Shown piece by piece: positions 7,505-43,802 of a DNA stretch of 64,000 nucleotides. Position 1 is the first letter of the stretch. Every line of letters begins with the position of its first letter. The notes under the pieces are model-generated. The model ran no database searches. It was not told where the DNA came from and was given only the letters and a program-made list of their open reading frames with translations. Source of the stretch: Bacillota bacterium. Lineage in GTDB: Bacteria; Bacillota; Clostridia; Christensenellales; Pumilibacteraceae. The translations under genes and the position numbers were made by a program. The DNA lies in contig WRGC01000005.1 in assembly GCA_009787385.1 (NCBI GenBank), positions 1 through 64,000 on the forward strand, read 5' to 3'.

Positions 7505-8973
7505 CTACACTCTTTTTCTTCCCTTGCGTATAAGCTTATTCTTGTGTTGTGCCAATATATTTTGTCTTTGCTCTTCCTTTGGCGGATTGGGTCTAGACAT
7601 TAAAAAGTATCTAAGTTCATCTAATGCATGATCATCTTTCTTTTGTGGTACATCACCTTTGCCCCACCAATAAGACTTGAATTCTCTAATTAGATTTACG
7701 CAATTACTAAATATAAATATCTGTGGTCTATTTTGAGAGTTGGACAAATATCGTTTGACAGTATTTATGCCTGCAAATAAGTCTTTGTTCACTTTGGTAT
7801 TTACAGCAATTCCATTATCAAAAAACAAGTCTGCAACATTTTTAGATGAGGCAAGAGTGCGTTGATTGGCGGCACTGTCTATCAACGCACTATATCGTCC
7901 AGAACAATCTTTGTGCCAACCCAAACTATCACATATATCCTTAATTTGATTAGAGTGATATACTATGTCTTTACCTGCATGATAATGTTCTGCAATTACA
8001 TACACAATCTCATCATAATCTACGGCATACCAATGACATGACAAAGGATTGTTTAATCCTGGATCTATTGAGATATTATTGTACCACTCTTTAGGTACAT
8101 CAAATGGCTGTATGACATGTATGTTTTGGTCAAATTCACTATATACCATACCACCAAGATTTATAAATTTTCCATATCTTCTACTATCCAATTCTTGTAC
8201 TGTCATAGTTCTAGTGAGAATATCTACTTCTGTTTTATCCAAATAAGGATTGTCACCCCATTCCATAAATATATGCCAAATATTAGGGTCTTGTTGCTCA
8301 TTTAAATAAATAATATTATATACCCATGTCAAACCAAGCAATGGCGTCATAGTACCAAATATCTCACCACTCCTATCAAGCACTCTCATACGGCACTCTT
8401 GATATATGTCAAATGGTGGTTCTTCATCAAACCATACAAAGTCCAAACTAGCACCTGCAAACTTATCTCTACCCATCTCACAACTCTTAAAACCTATCTT
8501 AGATACTCCACCAAATACATTGTATATATTAATAAAATCAATTATTCCACTACTAGGATTTTGACTACTACCACTAATCATTACTATGTCCTTTATCCAT
8601 TCGGGATTGAGATAACTCAATACTTTGGATTGTGCCACATCTCTCCCAACTTCTCTAGACAACGATACAACCCACCCATGTACATTAGGTTTGTTTGGCT
8701 TGTATGGATGAATACCTCTAGCCAACCATACAACTTCTACCGCACCACATTCTGTCTTTCCACTGCGATTACCACCAAATACCCATCTATTTTTTGCAGA
8801 ACATTAGCAAATTCAAGTTGCTTGCAATGTATCTTTTTACCTTTATTATAATACAATATCTTATTAGAATTTTGTTTTTTAGTTATCAATTTATCCAATT
8901 TATTTATTTTAGATAACAACAATACTTCTTCCAATATTTCTTGTTTTTTGTCTATTTGTTTTATTTCTTTCAT
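7505..8973 (-). pseudogene. phage terminase large subunit, frameshifted
   Basis: The ATPase-nuclease that packages phage DNA. The C-terminal 420 codons carry Walker B in LDFVWFDEEPP and a nuclease domain (ISIDPGLNNP, later ALIDSAANQR and KDDHALDELRYFL). The N-terminal part (8973 down to about 8796, starting MKEIKQIDKKQE) is in a different frame. Reading past the break, the second frame gives WVFGGNRSGKTE, the terminase Walker A motif, just after the junction, so both frames are needed for a working protein. The break lies in an A6 run (8790-8795); one extra A restores the frame. No other phage genes flank it, so it is an isolated relic of a prophage. Confidence 0.85.
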
Positions 8974-27190: not shown

Positions 27191-27961
27191 ATGAAAAATA
27201 CCAAACTAATTACAGTAGATATTAGTGACAATCGCAATGTATATTTGCTCAATGAGTTGCAAAATGATGGGTACAATGCCGTCAAATGGAATGACGAATG
27301 CATTTACAATATTCCAATAATACTGTTGTTGTCTCCTACTGCTACAGTAGACTGTACTGTGCCACAATACAGTATAGTTTTTTGTGGAAAATGTACTGAT
27401 ACCAAAATTGCTGAATTTGCAAAACAAAACATAAATGTACATAGATACTTTGATGACCCTAGACTTATAACACGCAACTGTCAACTCACAGCAGAAGGTG
27501 CATTGGCCGATATCATCAACAATACACCCGAAAGCTTGTTGTGGAGCAATATTTTGATAATAGGAAATGGCAATCTCAGCTTTGCCATGGCAAAAATGTT
27601 GAAACACAATACCAACAAACCTGACATTTGGGCAAGAGATCCAAAATCAAACCCACAAATCAACTCATATTGTTGCAATTTGTATAGCTTTGATGATGCA
27701 ATACAGTGGGACAAATACAACGCAATAATCAACACAGTACCAGCGCTAGTACTAGATTGCGAACTCAACCAAATACAAAAATCATGCTATATACTAGACC
27801 TAGCATCAAAACCAGGTGGTGTCAACTTTGAACTTGCAAAATCATTGGGCATCAAAACACACCACTATCTCAAAGTCCCAAGCATTGTCACACCCAAAGT
27901 TGCAGCAACATATATTAAACAAAGTGTATTACAAGTGTGTAGACGAGAAAAATATTTGTAA
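27191..27961 (+). CDS. dpaA: dipicolinate synthase subunit A
   Basis: DpaA (SpoVFA) with DpaB makes dipicolinic acid from dihydrodipicolinate in the mother cell; the product loads the spore core with calcium and gives heat resistance. Recognised by ITRNCQLTAEGALADI, the Rossmann segment NILIIGNGNLSFAMAKML, DIWARDP and the signature YILDLASKPGGVNFELAKSLGIK. At 256 residues it is shorter than the usual 290 or so, chiefly at the N-terminus. No Shine-Dalgarno is visible. CATATAAAT about 16 bases before the ATG is weakly like a sigma-K -10 box. dpaB follows after a mobile-element remnant. Confidence 0.9.
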   Translation: MKNTKLITVDISDNRNVYLLNELQNDGYNAVKWNDECIYNIPIILLLSPTATVDCTVPQYSIVFCGKCTDTKIAEFAKQNINVHRYFDDPRLITRNCQLTAEGALADIINNTPESLLWSNILIIGNGNLSFAMAKMLKHNTNKPDIWARDPKSNPQINSYCCNLYSFDDAIQWDKYNAIINTVPALVLDCELNQIQKSCYILDLASKPGGVNFELAKSLGIKTHHYLKVPSIVTPKVAATYIKQSVLQVCRREKYL

Positions 27962-27992
27962 GCAATATCCAACCCAAACGAAATTTTAAATT

Positions 27993-28051
27993 AGGAATAT
28001 ACAAATATAGTAGATTAAGATGAAAAAAGTAACGCCTAATTAAAAACAACC
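27993..28051 (+). repeat. MITE-like element, truncated copy E
   Basis: Only the left 60 bases or so of the element remain (ATACAAATA ... GATTAAGATGAAAAAAGTAAC ... AACAACC), ending where the G/C hairpin would begin. It lies between dpaA and dpaB, replacing the tight spacing usual for this pair. Confidence 0.7.
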
Positions 28052-28080
28052 GTTTACCTTACATTACTAAAGGAAAAACA

Positions 28081-28653
28081 ATGAAAAACAAAACAGTGGG
28101 GTTTAGTGTTACGGGATCTTTTTGCACTCTAGCGGCAGTGCTTCCTATTATTGCCGAATTGTCAAAACACAACAAAATTATTCCTATAATATCTAACAGT
28201 GTAGCTAGCTTTGATACTAGATTTTATAGAGCAGAAGATTTTTTGAAAGACTTAAAACTTGCAAGCAAAAATGAAAATATCATAACAACTATAGTAGATG
28301 CCGAAAAAATTGGTCCTGCTAACAATCTAGATATTATGGTAATTGCCCCTGCTACAGGTAATACTCTAGCAAAACTAGCATACGGGATTACTGACACCCC
28401 TGTGCTAATGGCTACTAAAGCAACGCTACGCAACAACAAACCTGTACTAATTTCACCAACTACCAATGACGCTCTATCCAATGGTGCAAAAAATTTGGGA
28501 ATACTATTTAATAGCAAAAATATATATACTGTGCCAATAGCACAAGATAGCCCCAATGGCAAACCATTTAGTGCAGTGGCACAGTTGGATATGTTGATAC
28601 CTGCACTTGAATTGGCATTGGGCAAACAACAAATACAGCCAATATATATATAG
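28081..28653 (+). CDS. dpaB: dipicolinate synthase subunit B
   Basis: Flavoprotein subunit (SpoVFB) of dipicolinate synthase. N-terminal TVGFSVTGSFCTLAAVLP, the PAXXN-like motif VIAPATGNTLAKLAYGITDTPVLMA and KPVLISPTTNDALSNGAKNLGIL are typical. 190 residues is normal. AAAGGAA precedes the ATG. Partner of the upstream dpaA; expected to be expressed late in the mother cell under sigma-K. Confidence 0.93.
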   Translation: MKNKTVGFSVTGSFCTLAAVLPIIAELSKHNKIIPIISNSVASFDTRFYRAEDFLKDLKLASKNENIITTIVDAEKIGPANNLDIMVIAPATGNTLAKLAYGITDTPVLMATKATLRNNKPVLISPTTNDALSNGAKNLGILFNSKNIYTVPIAQDSPNGKPFSAVAQLDMLIPALELALGKQQIQPIYI

Positions 28654-38266: not shown

Positions 38267-41200
38267 CTACAACCAATCTAAAGGATTATCAGATTCGGGC
38301 AAATCAATATCTACAGAATTTGATGATTTTGAGATGTTTGTATCTGTAGAACTATCTATAGAACTAAAGGTCTCTTTCGTCTCTTTTTGTATAGGATTCT
38401 CATCATGAGAAGAAGTATCAATACTACTATTTACAAAATTATTGTCCAAATTAAAGCCAACCTGACTAGAGTATACTAGATTCCCATTTTCATATGCTAC
38501 TATATTGTTGTTTTCAATTCTATTATTATTTAAAGTATCTTTATTAGTACACGACAATAAGTTGATGGATTTTTGTATGTTTGTATCTATCTCAAACTTA
38601 TACCCCCTACCCCAAACAGTGACAAAACGCCAATTTTCACCCTCTCCAATCTTTTCTCTAATGCGTTTGATATGCACATCTACTGTTCTACTATCCCCAT
38701 TATAATCACTTTTCCATACGCTTTCAAGCAACTTTTCACGACTAAAAACCTGCATTGGATGCGTCACAAAATAGTACAACAACTCTATCTCTTTAGGTGA
38801 CATTAATACTCGTTTGCCTGATACTTTGACTATATAATTGTCTATACTTACAAACAAATTATCTATAAGTACATCTCCACCAATTGCACTATTGTTGTAA
38901 AAATCTACTGTATTTGGCTTGTTAATGTTGTTAACAACTTCTTTATTATTGCTTGTATTCAACGAACTGTAAACATCTCTCGTATCTACTTTTGCAATAC
39001 TGTTGCTACCAACAACTTGTTTGTTAATTTGTGTATTCTCTACTATATAAGGTTCTATCGTGTCTAATTTTGCAATAGTATCTTTTCTAAAAGTATTCTT
39101 GTTGCTTTTTTCAATCAACTTAAAATCAGCAATTGCATGTTGTACATATTCCAACAATACTCGTTTTTCTACTTTATTGTTCTTAAACCAGTCTGTAGAC
39201 CATATGCGATAAAACTTCCACCCCATATTTTCTAAGATAGATTGTCTCAATCTATCTCTATCCCTAGCATTTTTGCTAGAATGGTAAATTGCACCATCAC
39301 ATTCTATTGCCAAAATAAAACAATCTAATGTTGGATGTTTGACTGCTAAATCTATTCTAAATCCACTACTACCCACTTGAGTATTTACCTTATATCCATT
39401 GTCCACTAATACTTGATATACTTCCAATTCAAATTTAGAATCAAACTTATTTATATCTTTAACATCAAGATTTTCGTACAGTTGTTTTACACCACGCTCT
39501 GCATACTCAAGATATTCCTTTAATAATCTTGCACCTACACTCTTTGCTCTATTAGCATCTATGTCATGTGCCCTAATGCTAGATACCAACTTTACATTAT
39601 GCTTGGCTCTAGTAATTGCCACATTGAGACGGCGTTCTCCGCCCTTAATACTCAATGGACCAAAGCTCTGTCTAAATTTGCCTATAGAATTATTTGCATA
39701 TCCAACACTAAAAATTATGGTATCTCTCTCATCACCTTGCACATTTTCTAAATTTTTTACAAAAAACGGCTCTACTAATTGCTCATCAAAATATTTAGCA
39801 AACCTATCATCTTTAGAACGCTTATATTCTAAAGCGTATTCTATACACTGTTGTTGCTTTACACTAAATGCAATTATACCAAGAGATCTCTCAGGGTGCG
39901 TAGCATAATGCTGATATATAAGTTGAACTACTCTATTTGCTTCATCTCTATTTTGATTATTGTCATATATTCCATCTTGTACAAATTCAAACTCTACTCC
40001 AGTATCTACACCATCTTGTGGCGAATTGAATGTGACAAGTTGATTTTGATAAAAATGTTTGTTGCTAAATGCAATTAGTGATTCGCTACGACTACGATAG
40101 TGCCACTTGAGAGTTTTTTCATAAAAAGATGTCCCCTTTAGAGTAACACACTTATCCAAAATAGACTCAAATGCAATTGGATCATCTTCACTTTCTTGTT
40201 GTGTATCATCATATTGCTCGTCGTCAGATCCTAATACAGTTTCAAAAAAATTGCTAGGTGGCATTTGTTTTGAATCTCCAACTACTACAACTTGCTTGGC
40301 TCTATATATACTTCCCAAACTATCCCACGGAAAAATTTGTGATGCTTCATCAAAAATTACAACATCAAATTGAGTATCATTGAGATATGTTGCAACACTA
40401 TTAGGAGACATCAAAAAACATGGTTTGAGAGTTTGCACCAAATCTATAGCATTGCTCATCAATTTGCGTACAGGAATATGCCTCATTTTCTTGCCTGCTT
40501 CATGACGCAAAAGTTTTATTTGAGCAACAAGTAAAGAACTCTTATCATTTTCCAAAACATGTCTAATGTTTTTTATGATATTGTTAGATACCTCTGTCCT
40601 TGCTAATACCAAAGACAATTGGTCATGTTTTACAAATGACTGTACAATTTTGTCATGTGTTTGTCTACTAAAGTGATTTAAAATAGGGTTGATAGATAAT
40701 ACCCAATAAAATTGCTGTAAATAAAATGATTTTAAAAATACACTATTTAATTCATCACTACGCACCCCATTTGAAATTGCAAATATCAACCAATCATACA
40801 ATTCCAATTGTTTGATTTCACGCAAATTATGTTCAAATCGCACAAATTCTTGTATACTATCATACTCATCTAACAATCTTTGAGTATATCCAAAACCTTT
40901 TTGAAAATCAATAATATCAAAATCAATTATTGACTTATCAAAATTGTGTTGCAAATCTTGTAATACAGCCCCATTCTTAGAAATAGAATCATATTGTGAT
41001 ACATATTGTGCAAGTCTAGACTTGATATTATCAAACTCAAATTGATTTAATCTAGCAAAATATCTAAAATTGCATGGCAATATATCATTGAGAACATCAA
41101 GATGAATATATAGTTCATGCCAATCATCTACTTTGTTCAACCCAATTCCTGTAGCATGCAACTTGACATTGTCTAAATCTATTTTGACTTTTTCTAATTC

Positions 41201-43663
41201 TTGTCTTGCTATTTCAACTCTTTGTCTTAAATGTATACTATCCCTATACTTTTCTTGAAATTGATTGATGTCACTGCATACTTTTTCAAGCATATCAAAC
41301 AACAAAATTGTATCTTCAACACTTGACTTGTTTAAATTGGACAACCTATTGTTGAATTCATTCAACTTAGTTTTGACAATCATGTATTGTTTTGCAATTT
41401 GCAATTTTTCTACTGCCAATTTATAATTTATTTTTATATTATTTTTGCTCAATGTAGACAATAATTTTGCATCTTGTTTGTACTTTCCACCAAATATTCT
41501 ACTTATAGCACCCTTATATTGAGTAGTATATTTGTGGTACAAGATATCTATATCCTTATCAAAAAGTTGCTCATTAAATACAGACATAATTTGACTGTAT
41601 AGATTGTCCAAATATTGTTGTATATTGCTAGCTATATCAACAATAGTATTGAACAATTGATTGCAAGCAATATCCAATTTGTCAATAAAAACAGCATGTT
41701 GGTCCAATGTCTCTTTGACTTGTGTAGTTGCATTAAACAACTTAGAAAGACTCTCTCGCTCAAAAAATCTACCATCAAAAACAGACAACTCAGTTGCAAC
41801 CTTTAGACTTTGCATTGTTGGGTCAATTTGACTATCAAAAATATCCAAACTATAAACATTAGAAATAGTATTTTTAAAATCTATTATATCACTATAATAC
41901 TGATTAGCTAATTTGAGTTTGGATTTAAATTCATTTAAAAAAACAAAATCTACATTTTCTACAATCAATCCATACCAAATATGTTGTCTAAAATCTTGTC
42001 CTATTGCACTACAATATTGACAATGATTTTCTATTATTGTTTTAGCTCTTAAAATATATTGGTCATTCTTTTCTGATATTTTGGGGATAATAAAATCCAA
42101 TTGCTTTACATTGCTGTATTTGGAAATATTGGATAATATCTCATAAGGAGATTGATTGATTTGTGCTATATTTTCGTGCAAAGCATTTAGATATTCATCC
42201 AATTTTTGCTTATCTCTAAAAATTATTTTAGTATTCTCAAAAAAATCATTGTTGAGTCTGTATGTCAAATCTAAGTTTTCTGTCAAGCTATAAATTATTT
42301 TCTTCTTATCTATTTTGTCAGCGTTGTGAAGCTCTAGACAAAATTTTGACAAACCTACTTTGTCTAGTCTATCATACACTACATTAAGTGCTGCCATCTT
42401 TTCGGACACAAACAAAACTGACTTATTTTGATATAGCAACTCAGCAATAATATTAGTTATTGTCTGTGATTTTCCTGTACCGGGAGGTCCTTGAACTACT
42501 AGGTTTTTGCCGTCCTTAGCTAGAGCTATAGTTTCTATTTGACTAGAGTCTGCATCTACTACACTGTGCAGTTCTACAATATCCTTTGATTGTTTAAAAT
42601 ACAAATCAAAATCTATAGAATTGCGTTGTGCCAAGTTGGATACACTAGATGGATTTACTATTTGGTCTATTATGTTGTGAGCAAGTACTTTATTGCGATT
42701 GGTAACCAAGTCATTGTACATATCCAACTTATTAAAACTAAACAATCCCAAAGCACAACTGCTATTTACACTCCAACTTGATTGATGAGCAATTTGTTCT
42801 TTAACAAATTGAAAATAATTGTCTATATCCAACTTGTCATCAAAATTAAATTTGTCAAACTCTATATTGTGTTCGTGTTTCAATCTATAAGCCAATGCAG
42901 GATTGAAATTCAAATCTTCTTGAGTATATGAAATTACAAACTTACTTTTATTTATAACTTCTAATTTTATTGGCATCAATATAATTGGAGATACAAGATT
43001 ATCTATTCGTGAATTGGCTACAACACTCCAATTGAGTGTGCCAAAAGTTATGTACAAAATATTAACACCCTTTTCTATCAAGCACTCTCTAGCCAATTTT
43101 TGCATACTTTTAAGTACATGATTGGTAGATACATCTCTTTTGTGTGCTAAAATTTCACCTTTGGATAGTTTGTCATACAACTTTGCCAACTTGGCAGATA
43201 CTTTATCAATATGTATTGTGTTCTTTGAACTTTTTTCAAAAGTGTTGGTATTAGTATTTGAAAAATTGTTTTCATAATCAAAATTATTGTTGTTCAAATT
43301 AGAACCAACTTGGCTAGAATATATTGGATTGCCATTTTCGTATGCTACTATATCACTAGTTGTATTTGCAGACAAAAGCATATCATTGTCATTAGTAGAT
43401 TGTTGTTGATTGGTATAGTTTTCAAAATTATCATCTACTTCAAAGTATATCTTTCTTTTGGAATTGTCAGTAGTACCCCCTAGATACTCATCTACATTAA
43501 AAATTTGCAATGACTTGCCCATGTACAAATCTTCAAAAATCAAAGAAAAACTAGGTGCTAATACATCCAATTTGCGTAGCTTAGCATCTTTGAAATTTAT
43601 AAACGCATTGCGTTTTGAAGTATCCAACAATTTTTGACACCACAAGTCAAATATCTTACTCAT
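38267..43663 (-). CDS. giant SF1 helicase-nuclease fused to an OmpR-type winged helix
   Basis: 1798 residues. Domains in order: DUF4011-like N-terminus (DLWCQKLLDTSKRNAFINF, residues 4-22); SF1 ATPase with Walker A GPPGTGKS (392-399), a long helical insert (about 430-1060), Walker B FDEASQ (Asp1105), VVVGDSKQMPP, and VAITRAKH (about 1350); an endonuclease domain of the Vsr/MTES_1575 type (about 1400-1515; FRIDLAV, IECDGAIYH, WKFYRIWSTDWF); a Ser/Asn-rich linker; and a winged helix of the Trans_reg_C/OmpR type (about 1604-1693; LMSPKEIELLYYFV, REKLLESVW, RTVDVHIKRIREKI, VWGRGYKF). The first three occur together in COG1112-like helicase-nuclease proteins; the winged-helix fusion is new to me. 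There is no receiver domain. A strong promoter lies 7 bases before the ATG. A motif near residue 105 (VAYENGNPIYSSQVG) recurs near residue 1725. Confidence 0.85.
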   Translation of the reverse strand: MSKIFDLWCQKLLDTSKRNAFINFKDAKLRKLDVLAPSFSLIFEDLYMGKSLQIFNVDEYLGGTTDNSKRKIYFEVDDNFENYTNQQQSTNDNDMLLSANTTSDIVAYENGNPIYSSQVGSNLNNNNFDYENNFSNTNTNTFEKSSKNTIHIDKVSAKLAKLYDKLSKGEILAHKRDVSTNHVLKSMQKLARECLIEKGVNILYITFGTLNWSVVANSRIDNLVSPIILMPIKLEVINKSKFVISYTQEDLNFNPALAYRLKHEHNIEFDKFNFDDKLDIDNYFQFVKEQIAHQSSWSVNSSCALGLFSFNKLDMYNDLVTNRNKVLAHNIIDQIVNPSSVSNLAQRNSIDFDLYFKQSKDIVELHSVVDADSSQIETIALAKDGKNLVVQGPPGTGKSQTITNIIAELLYQNKSVLFVSEKMAALNVVYDRLDKVGLSKFCLELHNADKIDKKKIIYSLTENLDLTYRLNNDFFENTKIIFRDKQKLDEYLNALHENIAQINQSPYEILSNISKYSNVKQLDFIIPKISEKNDQYILRAKTIIENHCQYCSAIGQDFRQHIWYGLIVENVDFVFLNEFKSKLKLANQYYSDIIDFKNTISNVYSLDIFDSQIDPTMQSLKVATELSVFDGRFFERESLSKLFNATTQVKETLDQHAVFIDKLDIACNQLFNTIVDIASNIQQYLDNLYSQIMSVFNEQLFDKDIDILYHKYTTQYKGAISRIFGGKYKQDAKLLSTLSKNNIKINYKLAVEKLQIAKQYMIVKTKLNEFNNRLSNLNKSSVEDTILLFDMLEKVCSDINQFQEKYRDSIHLRQRVEIARQELEKVKIDLDNVKLHATGIGLNKVDDWHELYIHLDVLNDILPCNFRYFARLNQFEFDNIKSRLAQYVSQYDSISKNGAVLQDLQHNFDKSIIDFDIIDFQKGFGYTQRLLDEYDSIQEFVRFEHNLREIKQLELYDWLIFAISNGVRSDELNSVFLKSFYLQQFYWVLSINPILNHFSRQTHDKIVQSFVKHDQLSLVLARTEVSNNIIKNIRHVLENDKSSLLVAQIKLLRHEAGKKMRHIPVRKLMSNAIDLVQTLKPCFLMSPNSVATYLNDTQFDVVIFDEASQIFPWDSLGSIYRAKQVVVVGDSKQMPPSNFFETVLGSDDEQYDDTQQESEDDPIAFESILDKCVTLKGTSFYEKTLKWHYRSRSESLIAFSNKHFYQNQLVTFNSPQDGVDTGVEFEFVQDGIYDNNQNRDEANRVVQLIYQHYATHPERSLGIIAFSVKQQQCIEYALEYKRSKDDRFAKYFDEQLVEPFFVKNLENVQGDERDTIIFSVGYANNSIGKFRQSFGPLSIKGGERRLNVAITRAKHNVKLVSSIRAHDIDANRAKSVGARLLKEYLEYAERGVKQLYENLDVKDINKFDSKFELEVYQVLVDNGYKVNTQVGSSGFRIDLAVKHPTLDCFILAIECDGAIYHSSKNARDRDRLRQSILENMGWKFYRIWSTDWFKNNKVEKRVLLEYVQHAIADFKLIEKSNKNTFRKDTIAKLDTIEPYIVENTQINKQVVGSNSIAKVDTRDVYSSLNTSNNKEVVNNINKPNTVDFYNNSAIGGDVLIDNLFVSIDNYIVKVSGKRVLMSPKEIELLYYFVTHPMQVFSREKLLESVWKSDYNGDSRTVDVHIKRIREKIGEGENWRFVTVWGRGYKFEIDTNIQKSINLLSCTNKDTLNNNRIENNNIVAYENGNLVYSSQVGFNLDNNFVNSSIDTSSHDENPIQKETKETFSSIDSSTDTNISKSSNSVDIDLPESDNPLDWL

Positions 43664-43670
43664 ATATAAC

Positions 43671-43699
43671 AATATAACACATTATTGCATATTTGTCAA
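43671..43699 (-). promoter_or_regulatory. promoter of the helicase-nuclease gene, seven bases before its ATG
   Basis: Minus strand TTGACA (43694-43699), 17-base spacer, TATATT (43671-43676), then seven bases and the ATG at 43661-43663. The -10 box covers an upstream in-frame TTG, which rules that start out. No Shine-Dalgarno exists; a leaderless mRNA is predicted. Confidence 0.72.
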
Positions 43700-43744: not shown

Positions 43745-43781
43745 TACAAAAAATCATACTATAGAGGATATCTATAGTATG
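43745..43781 (-). terminator. terminator downstream of the NYN-domain gene
   Basis: 11-bp perfect stem (CATACTATAGA / TCTATAGTATG, 43755-43765 / 43771-43781) followed on the minus strand by ATTTTTTG. It separates the NYN gene from the helicase gene, so the two are transcribed independently. Confidence 0.8.
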
Positions 43782-43802
43782 AAATCAACAAGGCTAATAT
43801 AT

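Follow-up and report, generated by a model that had tools for sequence, protein, structure and literature searches.

An OmpR-type winged helix in place of the C-terminal module of a PDC-S37/ProA-like helicase-nuclease

Introduction

The closest described relatives of the protein analyzed here are PDC-S37, a PADLOC candidate (PDLC05009), and the anti-phage proteins ProA and Hhe. For such proteins, the 2013 HEPN survey assigned two winged helix-turn-helix domains (wHTH) overlapping DUF3320 and proposed a direct recognition of invading DNA (PMC3710099). In Pseudomonas aeruginosa, a large DUF4011 gene borders a defence hotspot and was described as a core gene (PMC10250203). The literature search found no publication naming PDC-S37.

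An earlier note on this DNA had described a COG1112-type protein of a defence-linked family in which DUF4011, an SF1 helicase, a Vsr-like nuclease and a complete Trans_reg_C domain follow each other. The family assignment agrees with the PDC-S37 match and the relatedness to ProA and Hhe, and the architecture was recovered with Pfam in one open frame. The winged helix is not the simple extra it had been taken for, since it has taken the place of the tandem winged-helix module that relatives conserve at their C-terminus. New compared with the earlier note are the loss of this family module, the origin of the winged helix within the genome itself, and two low-complexity parts, an insert in DUF4011 and a tail after the winged helix. 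As judged from sequence comparison, the most likely explanation is that a helicase-nuclease of the defence type had its DNA-binding module exchanged in a lineage-specific event.

Results and Discussion

Gene organization and transcription signals

The whole gene, encoding DUF4011, the SF1 helicase, the MTES_1575/Vsr-like nuclease and the OmpR-type winged helix, is located at positions 38267..43663 on the minus strand of the window, which is the whole analyzed stretch of 64,000 nucleotides (open frame, Pfam). The frame is uninterrupted from the ATG at 43663 to the stop codon at 38267-38269 and comprises 1798 aa. A TTG three codons 5′ of this ATG is an alternative that is open too; the ATG lines up with the start codons in the aligned relatives.

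The adjoining genes are topA, dprA, an NYN-domain gene and a CvpA-like gene, with argS and ligA also nearby; the surroundings of the gene are thus housekeeping genes, as opposed to a defence island. Neither a kinase nor a regulator gene was found among its neighbours, and a receiver domain with a phospho-acceptor Asp gave no Pfam match in the protein, as the earlier note had stated for both receiver and kinase. Elsewhere in the window, a phage terminase large-subunit-like gene (7505-8725) was recognized by eye from its translation only. A gene pair resembling the dipicolinate synthase subunits A and B (27191-28653), likewise seen by eye only, is a hint at spore formation.

The consensus scan identified a promoter-like sequence TTGACA-17-TATATT at 43671..43699 (minus strand) with a TG ahead of the second hexamer. 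This site, a candidate from a consensus match only, ends 7 nt from the ATG, so that the transcript may be leaderless. A terminator-like hairpin with a T run was detected at 43754..43782 (minus strand) in the gap between the NYN-domain gene and the helicase-nuclease gene (1 found, 0.1 expected). The helicase-nuclease gene is therefore probably its own transcription unit.

The helicase-nuclease core

The DUF4011 domain covers aa 11-261 (42881..43633, minus strand; Pfam, 90 bits). It contains an Asn/Ser-rich low-complexity insert at about aa 86-150 (43214..43408, minus strand), which the alignment showed to be absent in relatives. Domain 1A of the SF1 helicase was found at aa 372-501 (42161..42550, minus strand; Pfam AAA_11, motif alignment) with the Walker A motif at aa 392-398. 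Domain 2A (AAA_12), which includes the VAITRAKH motif, is located at aa 1178-1362 (39578..40132, minus strand; Pfam, motif alignment), and the Walker B motif DEASQ lies just upstream of it at aa 1105-1109. The MTES_1575/Vsr-like nuclease follows at aa 1411-1504 (39152..39433, minus strand; Pfam 122 bits, alignment); its residues D1438, E1454 and D1456 are invariant in alignment A1. No HEPN or transglutaminase domain was matched by Pfam in this protein.

GPPGTGKSQ, DEASQ, VAxTRAK and the ECDG core vary little across 13 relatives, being largely invariant, and are present here. All four motifs that had been called intact (Walker A, DEASQ, VAITRAKH, IECDG) could be confirmed, and by their residues they look active. 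For the nuclease, 31 of the 32 positions invariant in the 13 relatives are intact, and for the helicase 82-84%. With DUF4011, helicase and nuclease in one chain and the motifs intact, the protein has the PDC-S37/ProA-like core. The least conserved of the retained domains is DUF4011, where 21 of 37 family-invariant positions were kept (57%) and 16 of 37 lost. In the core tree the query forms a very long branch (1.98 vs a median of 0.39). Taken together with the insert and the lost DUF4011 positions, this suggests that the activity may have changed.

The long branch and the missing 43% of the DUF4011 invariants could also point to a decaying gene, which would have lost its C-terminal module, picked up an in-frame piece by chance together with low-complexity sequence, and would no longer be under selection for DNA restriction. 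The low-complexity insert and tail, which share an internal repeat, fit this reading too. Against it stand the 1798-codon frame, which stays open in a genome of about 32% GC, and the retention of nearly all nuclease and more than 80% of the helicase invariants. Decay is therefore regarded as distinctly unlikely.

Loss of the C-terminal module

Beyond the nuclease, the relatives have a conserved module of ~200 aa. Among the C-termini of 82 relatives, DUF3320 was found in 63, WGR in 5, GreA_GreB in 2 and Trans_reg_C in 0. An AlphaFold2 model of this module, made for a Lachnospiraceae relative aligned with 15 others, shows a tandem of two winged-helix units, with a mean pLDDT of 87 and values of 90-97 in most blocks. 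Foldseek with the modelled module returned winged helices (Rok, cullin WHB) and tandem ones (ESCRT-II), with E-values that were all weak.

In the query, the last stretch that could be aligned with the relatives is at about aa 1520-1543 (39035..39106, minus strand), where F1525 and Y1539 are kept. Past the nuclease, only 3 of 21 family-invariant positions are retained, and neither the DUF3320-overlapping tandem winged-helix module nor any Pfam match to DUF3320 was found. On the evidence of the alignments, the tandem winged-helix module of the family is shown to have been lost and replaced in frame by an OmpR-type winged helix.

More distant relatives (L163, L171, L135 and L174) carry WGR or GreA/GreB after the nuclease and have no DUF3320 match, which indicates that the C-terminal end of this protein has been exchanged more than once. 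In Lachnospiraceae NK4A144, a second short nuclease-containing frame follows a full-length relative (L160:11627-12076). The relative in genome G001 (L053:4804-8533) occupies two frames that overlap; either a frameshift or a sequencing error accounts for the split.

The captured winged helix, its linker and the tail

The nuclease part is followed by a low-complexity linker at about aa 1544-1595 (38879..39034, minus strand), which is predicted to be disordered (AlphaFold2 pLDDT < 50). The captured winged helix itself is a block of 291 nt (38586..38876, minus strand) that is 84% identical on the nucleotide level to the sequence for the C-terminal domain of the OmpR-type response regulator encoded in this genome (G000:C16:18216-18518). 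Its Trans_reg_C domain at aa 1616-1690 is complete (profile 1-77 of 77, 86 bits, E 2e-24; Pfam). AlphaFold2 reproduced the expected order of strands and helices with low local confidence (pLDDT about 40-68), and SaeR and VicR were the best relatives among solved structures. The frame stays open where the regulator has its stop codon and continues into an Asn/Ser-rich tail at about aa 1693-1798 (38270..38587, minus strand). For the C-terminal tip DNPLDWL, a likeness to SSB tips was considered and dropped, since the SSB of this genome ends in DDDNLPF and the likeness is insufficient for an argument.

Sequence comparison revealed a 68-nt internal repeat. Copy 1, VAYENGNPIYSSQVG, is located in the DUF4011 insert (43286..43353, minus strand), and copy 2, VAYENGNLVYSSQVG, in the C-terminal tail (38438..38505, minus strand). 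The copies are 84% identical to each other, and no match of comparable strength was found elsewhere in the genome. A mobile in-frame element as the source of the repeated VAYENGN segment was rejected because no comparable copy exists elsewhere in the genome. The divergence of the repeat equals that between the fused winged helix and its donor, so that the two events may be of similar age.

An assembly join between two genes, here one for a helicase and one for a response regulator, is unlikely, and we give such an artefact hardly any credence. The gene does come from a single draft genome of 49 contigs, a second assembly was not found, and the architecture occurs in no relative. However, the fused domain differs in 16% of its bases from the sole regulator copy, and the join is in frame at the domain boundary. 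Furthermore, the tail after the winged helix is absent from the locus of the regulator, and the only counterpart of comparable strength to its 68-nt repeat in the genome lies in the N-terminal half of this gene.

Donor regulator and age of the copy

Only one other Trans_reg_C domain is encoded in the genome. It belongs to a response regulator of 238 aa on contig 16 (G000:C16:17796-18512). The edges of the 291-nt block are sharp and extend from the start of the domain to just before the stop codon of this regulator. Over 95 residues, the fused domain and the genome's own regulator are 82% identical on the amino acid and 83% on the nucleotide level. The corresponding values for the own regulator and that of the same genus, represented by one other genome, are 90% and 74%.

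The fused and the own regulator domain differ by a dN of 0.115 and a dS of 0.60 (dN/dS about 0.19), whereas between the own and the same-genus regulator the silent sites are saturated. In the DNA tree, the fused copy joins the own regulator (support 96/98), with the same-genus regulator next. These results indicate that the copy arose in this lineage after the split from the same-genus genome. At codon positions 1 and 2, 20 changes were counted on the fused branch and 1 on the donor branch, compared to 8 and 6 at position 3 (p 0.01). The much faster change of the fused domain would be expected from the decaying gene described above, but the dN/dS of about 0.19 argues against it.

The sole OmpR-type regulator (in L076) precedes rplM-rpsI, apart from the one clearly matching gene for a likely partner kinase; both are on contigs other than that of the helicase-nuclease gene. 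This kinase gene (G000:C22:16706-17755, in L089) is found at a locus with a cysteine desulfurase gene and thiI. In relatives, regulator and kinase are kept together at the cysteine desulfurase/thiI locus.

DNA-reading surface and a possible link to the regulon

In the recognition helix, RTVDVHIKRIREK is identical in the fused domain and the own regulator. Helix and wing together show 2 changes in 28 residues vs 15 in 67 elsewhere (p 0.09, not significant). Both changes are conservative, namely V to I at the end of the helix and K to R in the wing. Since the fused domain and the regulator have nearly the same DNA-reading surface, the protein probably prefers the sequences of the regulator. The changes of the fused domain mostly spare the DNA-reading parts; some affect the loop through which PhoB/OmpR relatives contact RNA polymerase.

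The near identity of recognition helix and wing raises the question of a self-regulating or regulon-coupled enzyme, in which the winged helix binds the operators of the regulator or the gene's own promoter and the two-component signal sets the level or activity of the enzyme. Site targeting and repression of its own promoter, as suggested in the earlier note, are conceivable. In line with the coupling, a strong promoter-like site immediately precedes the start codon and the gene probably forms a separate transcription unit; moreover, the genome has a single OmpR-type regulator with a single matching kinase gene, which leaves one operator type to share. On the other hand, a search upstream of the helicase-nuclease, regulator and kinase genes yielded no convincing WalR-type repeats or direct repeats of 10-12 bp. 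As the fused domain has no receiver, it could not sense phosphorylation itself, and its changes partly hit the RNA polymerase-contacting loop. We consider such a coupling unlikely.

A more far-reaching form of this idea, that the protein is addressed to the operators of the sole OmpR-type regulator and ties cleavage or its own production to two-component sites, is more doubtful still, and less credible than decay. If this holds, the protein would be a regulon-addressed helicase-nuclease, a hitherto undescribed type.

Rarity and distribution

No second frame with a nuclease and an OmpR-type winged helix was present among the matches listed for the genomes searched, 396 from the order and 398 from the phylum, and the fusion was not found among 80 wider relatives from genome contigs. 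These searches detect close versions of the fusion; one with a distant regulator domain could escape them. A few regulator matches were in open frames of 700-900 aa, which had no nuclease. In plasmids, 0 of 323 records with a match cover 80% of the nuclease-plus-winged-helix query, a count of records that can include plain regulator matches. Viral contigs contained no close relatives. In the literature, no publication on a DUF4011-helicase-nuclease-Trans_reg_C architecture was found. The view that this architecture was undescribed is thus borne out for the genomes, plasmids and publications searched.

According to the earlier note, a winged helix missing in all orthologues would count against its reading. 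The domain is indeed absent in every relative examined, yet the finding stands, because the copy traces to the genome's own regulator and has since accumulated constrained changes at its present site.

The one other genome of the genus has no copy of the fused gene, which could be taken as a sign of decay, and a different gene adjoins dprA there. However, the genus evolves fast in general; DprA, for example, is only 53% identical between the two genomes.

The core tree intermingles bacterial families and phyla. In two relatives of the genus g9, the gene is located beside a 23S rRNA methyltransferase-like gene and not beside dprA. The mixed families in the tree, the plasmid matches and the varying neighbours fit a gene that may be mobile, as is the case for mobile defence genes.

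Proposed function

The domain swap is real and well documented, affects a known kind of protein and was found once. For its function, we think it probable that this PDC-S37/ProA-like helicase-nuclease acts in a single-protein defence against incoming DNA, in which the captured winged helix takes over the job of the lost tandem winged-helix module. The borrowed domain would tether the enzyme to double-stranded DNA through the flexible linker, which may let the tethered helicase-nuclease act at a distance. The helicase would then move along or open the tethered DNA, and the nuclease would cut it. Some restraint, of which there is no sign here, would be required if the nuclease were directed to sites of the cell's own regulator.

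Within one lineage, a housekeeping regulator has thus passed the part with which it binds DNA to an enzyme of the defence type. The natural swap hits exactly the module that was proposed as the recognizer of foreign DNA in 2013 (PMC3710099). Since the DNA preferences of OmpR-type domains are readable, the swap makes a clean test of this proposal feasible.

Comparison with known systems

By its profile matches, the core is of a known, PDC-S37/ProA-like kind and is related to the anti-phage proteins ProA and Hhe. The best profile over almost the whole core was PDC-S37 (1155 bits, aa 3-1554), which has DUF4011, SF1 helicase and nuclease in the same order as the query. In the query the alignment ends at profile position 1383 of 1550; in five relatives it reaches 1534-1544. 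The winged-helix tandem at the C-terminal end of PDC-S37 is absent, and the OmpR-type winged helix is found there instead.

The ProA model (NCBIfam NF058533) matched with 1067.6 bits over aa 6-1573, which is under the curated cut-off of 1500. The matched part was 361-1764 of 1903 profile positions, so that the first 360 positions and the C-terminus are unmatched. This cut-off was passed only by Chitinophaga among five relatives, while the four from Firmicutes fall short. Homology to Hhe (NCBIfam NF042953; PADLOC Hhe) was found for DUF4011, helicase and nuclease with 821.3 and 572 bits, respectively. The query is well under the NCBIfam cut-off of 2000, and its C-terminus differs.

With the proteins of the 2013 survey (PMC3710099) the query shares the SF1 helicase, the same nuclease family and a winged-helix part at the C-terminus, and no methylase partner was seen beside the gene. 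It differs from them in having no HEPN or transglutaminase domain and in carrying one OmpR-type winged helix instead of two DUF3320-overlapping ones. Furthermore, the fused domain resembles the complete effector domain of the OmpR/PhoB regulators (SaeR, VicR/WalR, PhoB) with recognition helix and wing. In contrast to these regulators, it has no receiver and follows a helicase-nuclease via a long flexible linker.
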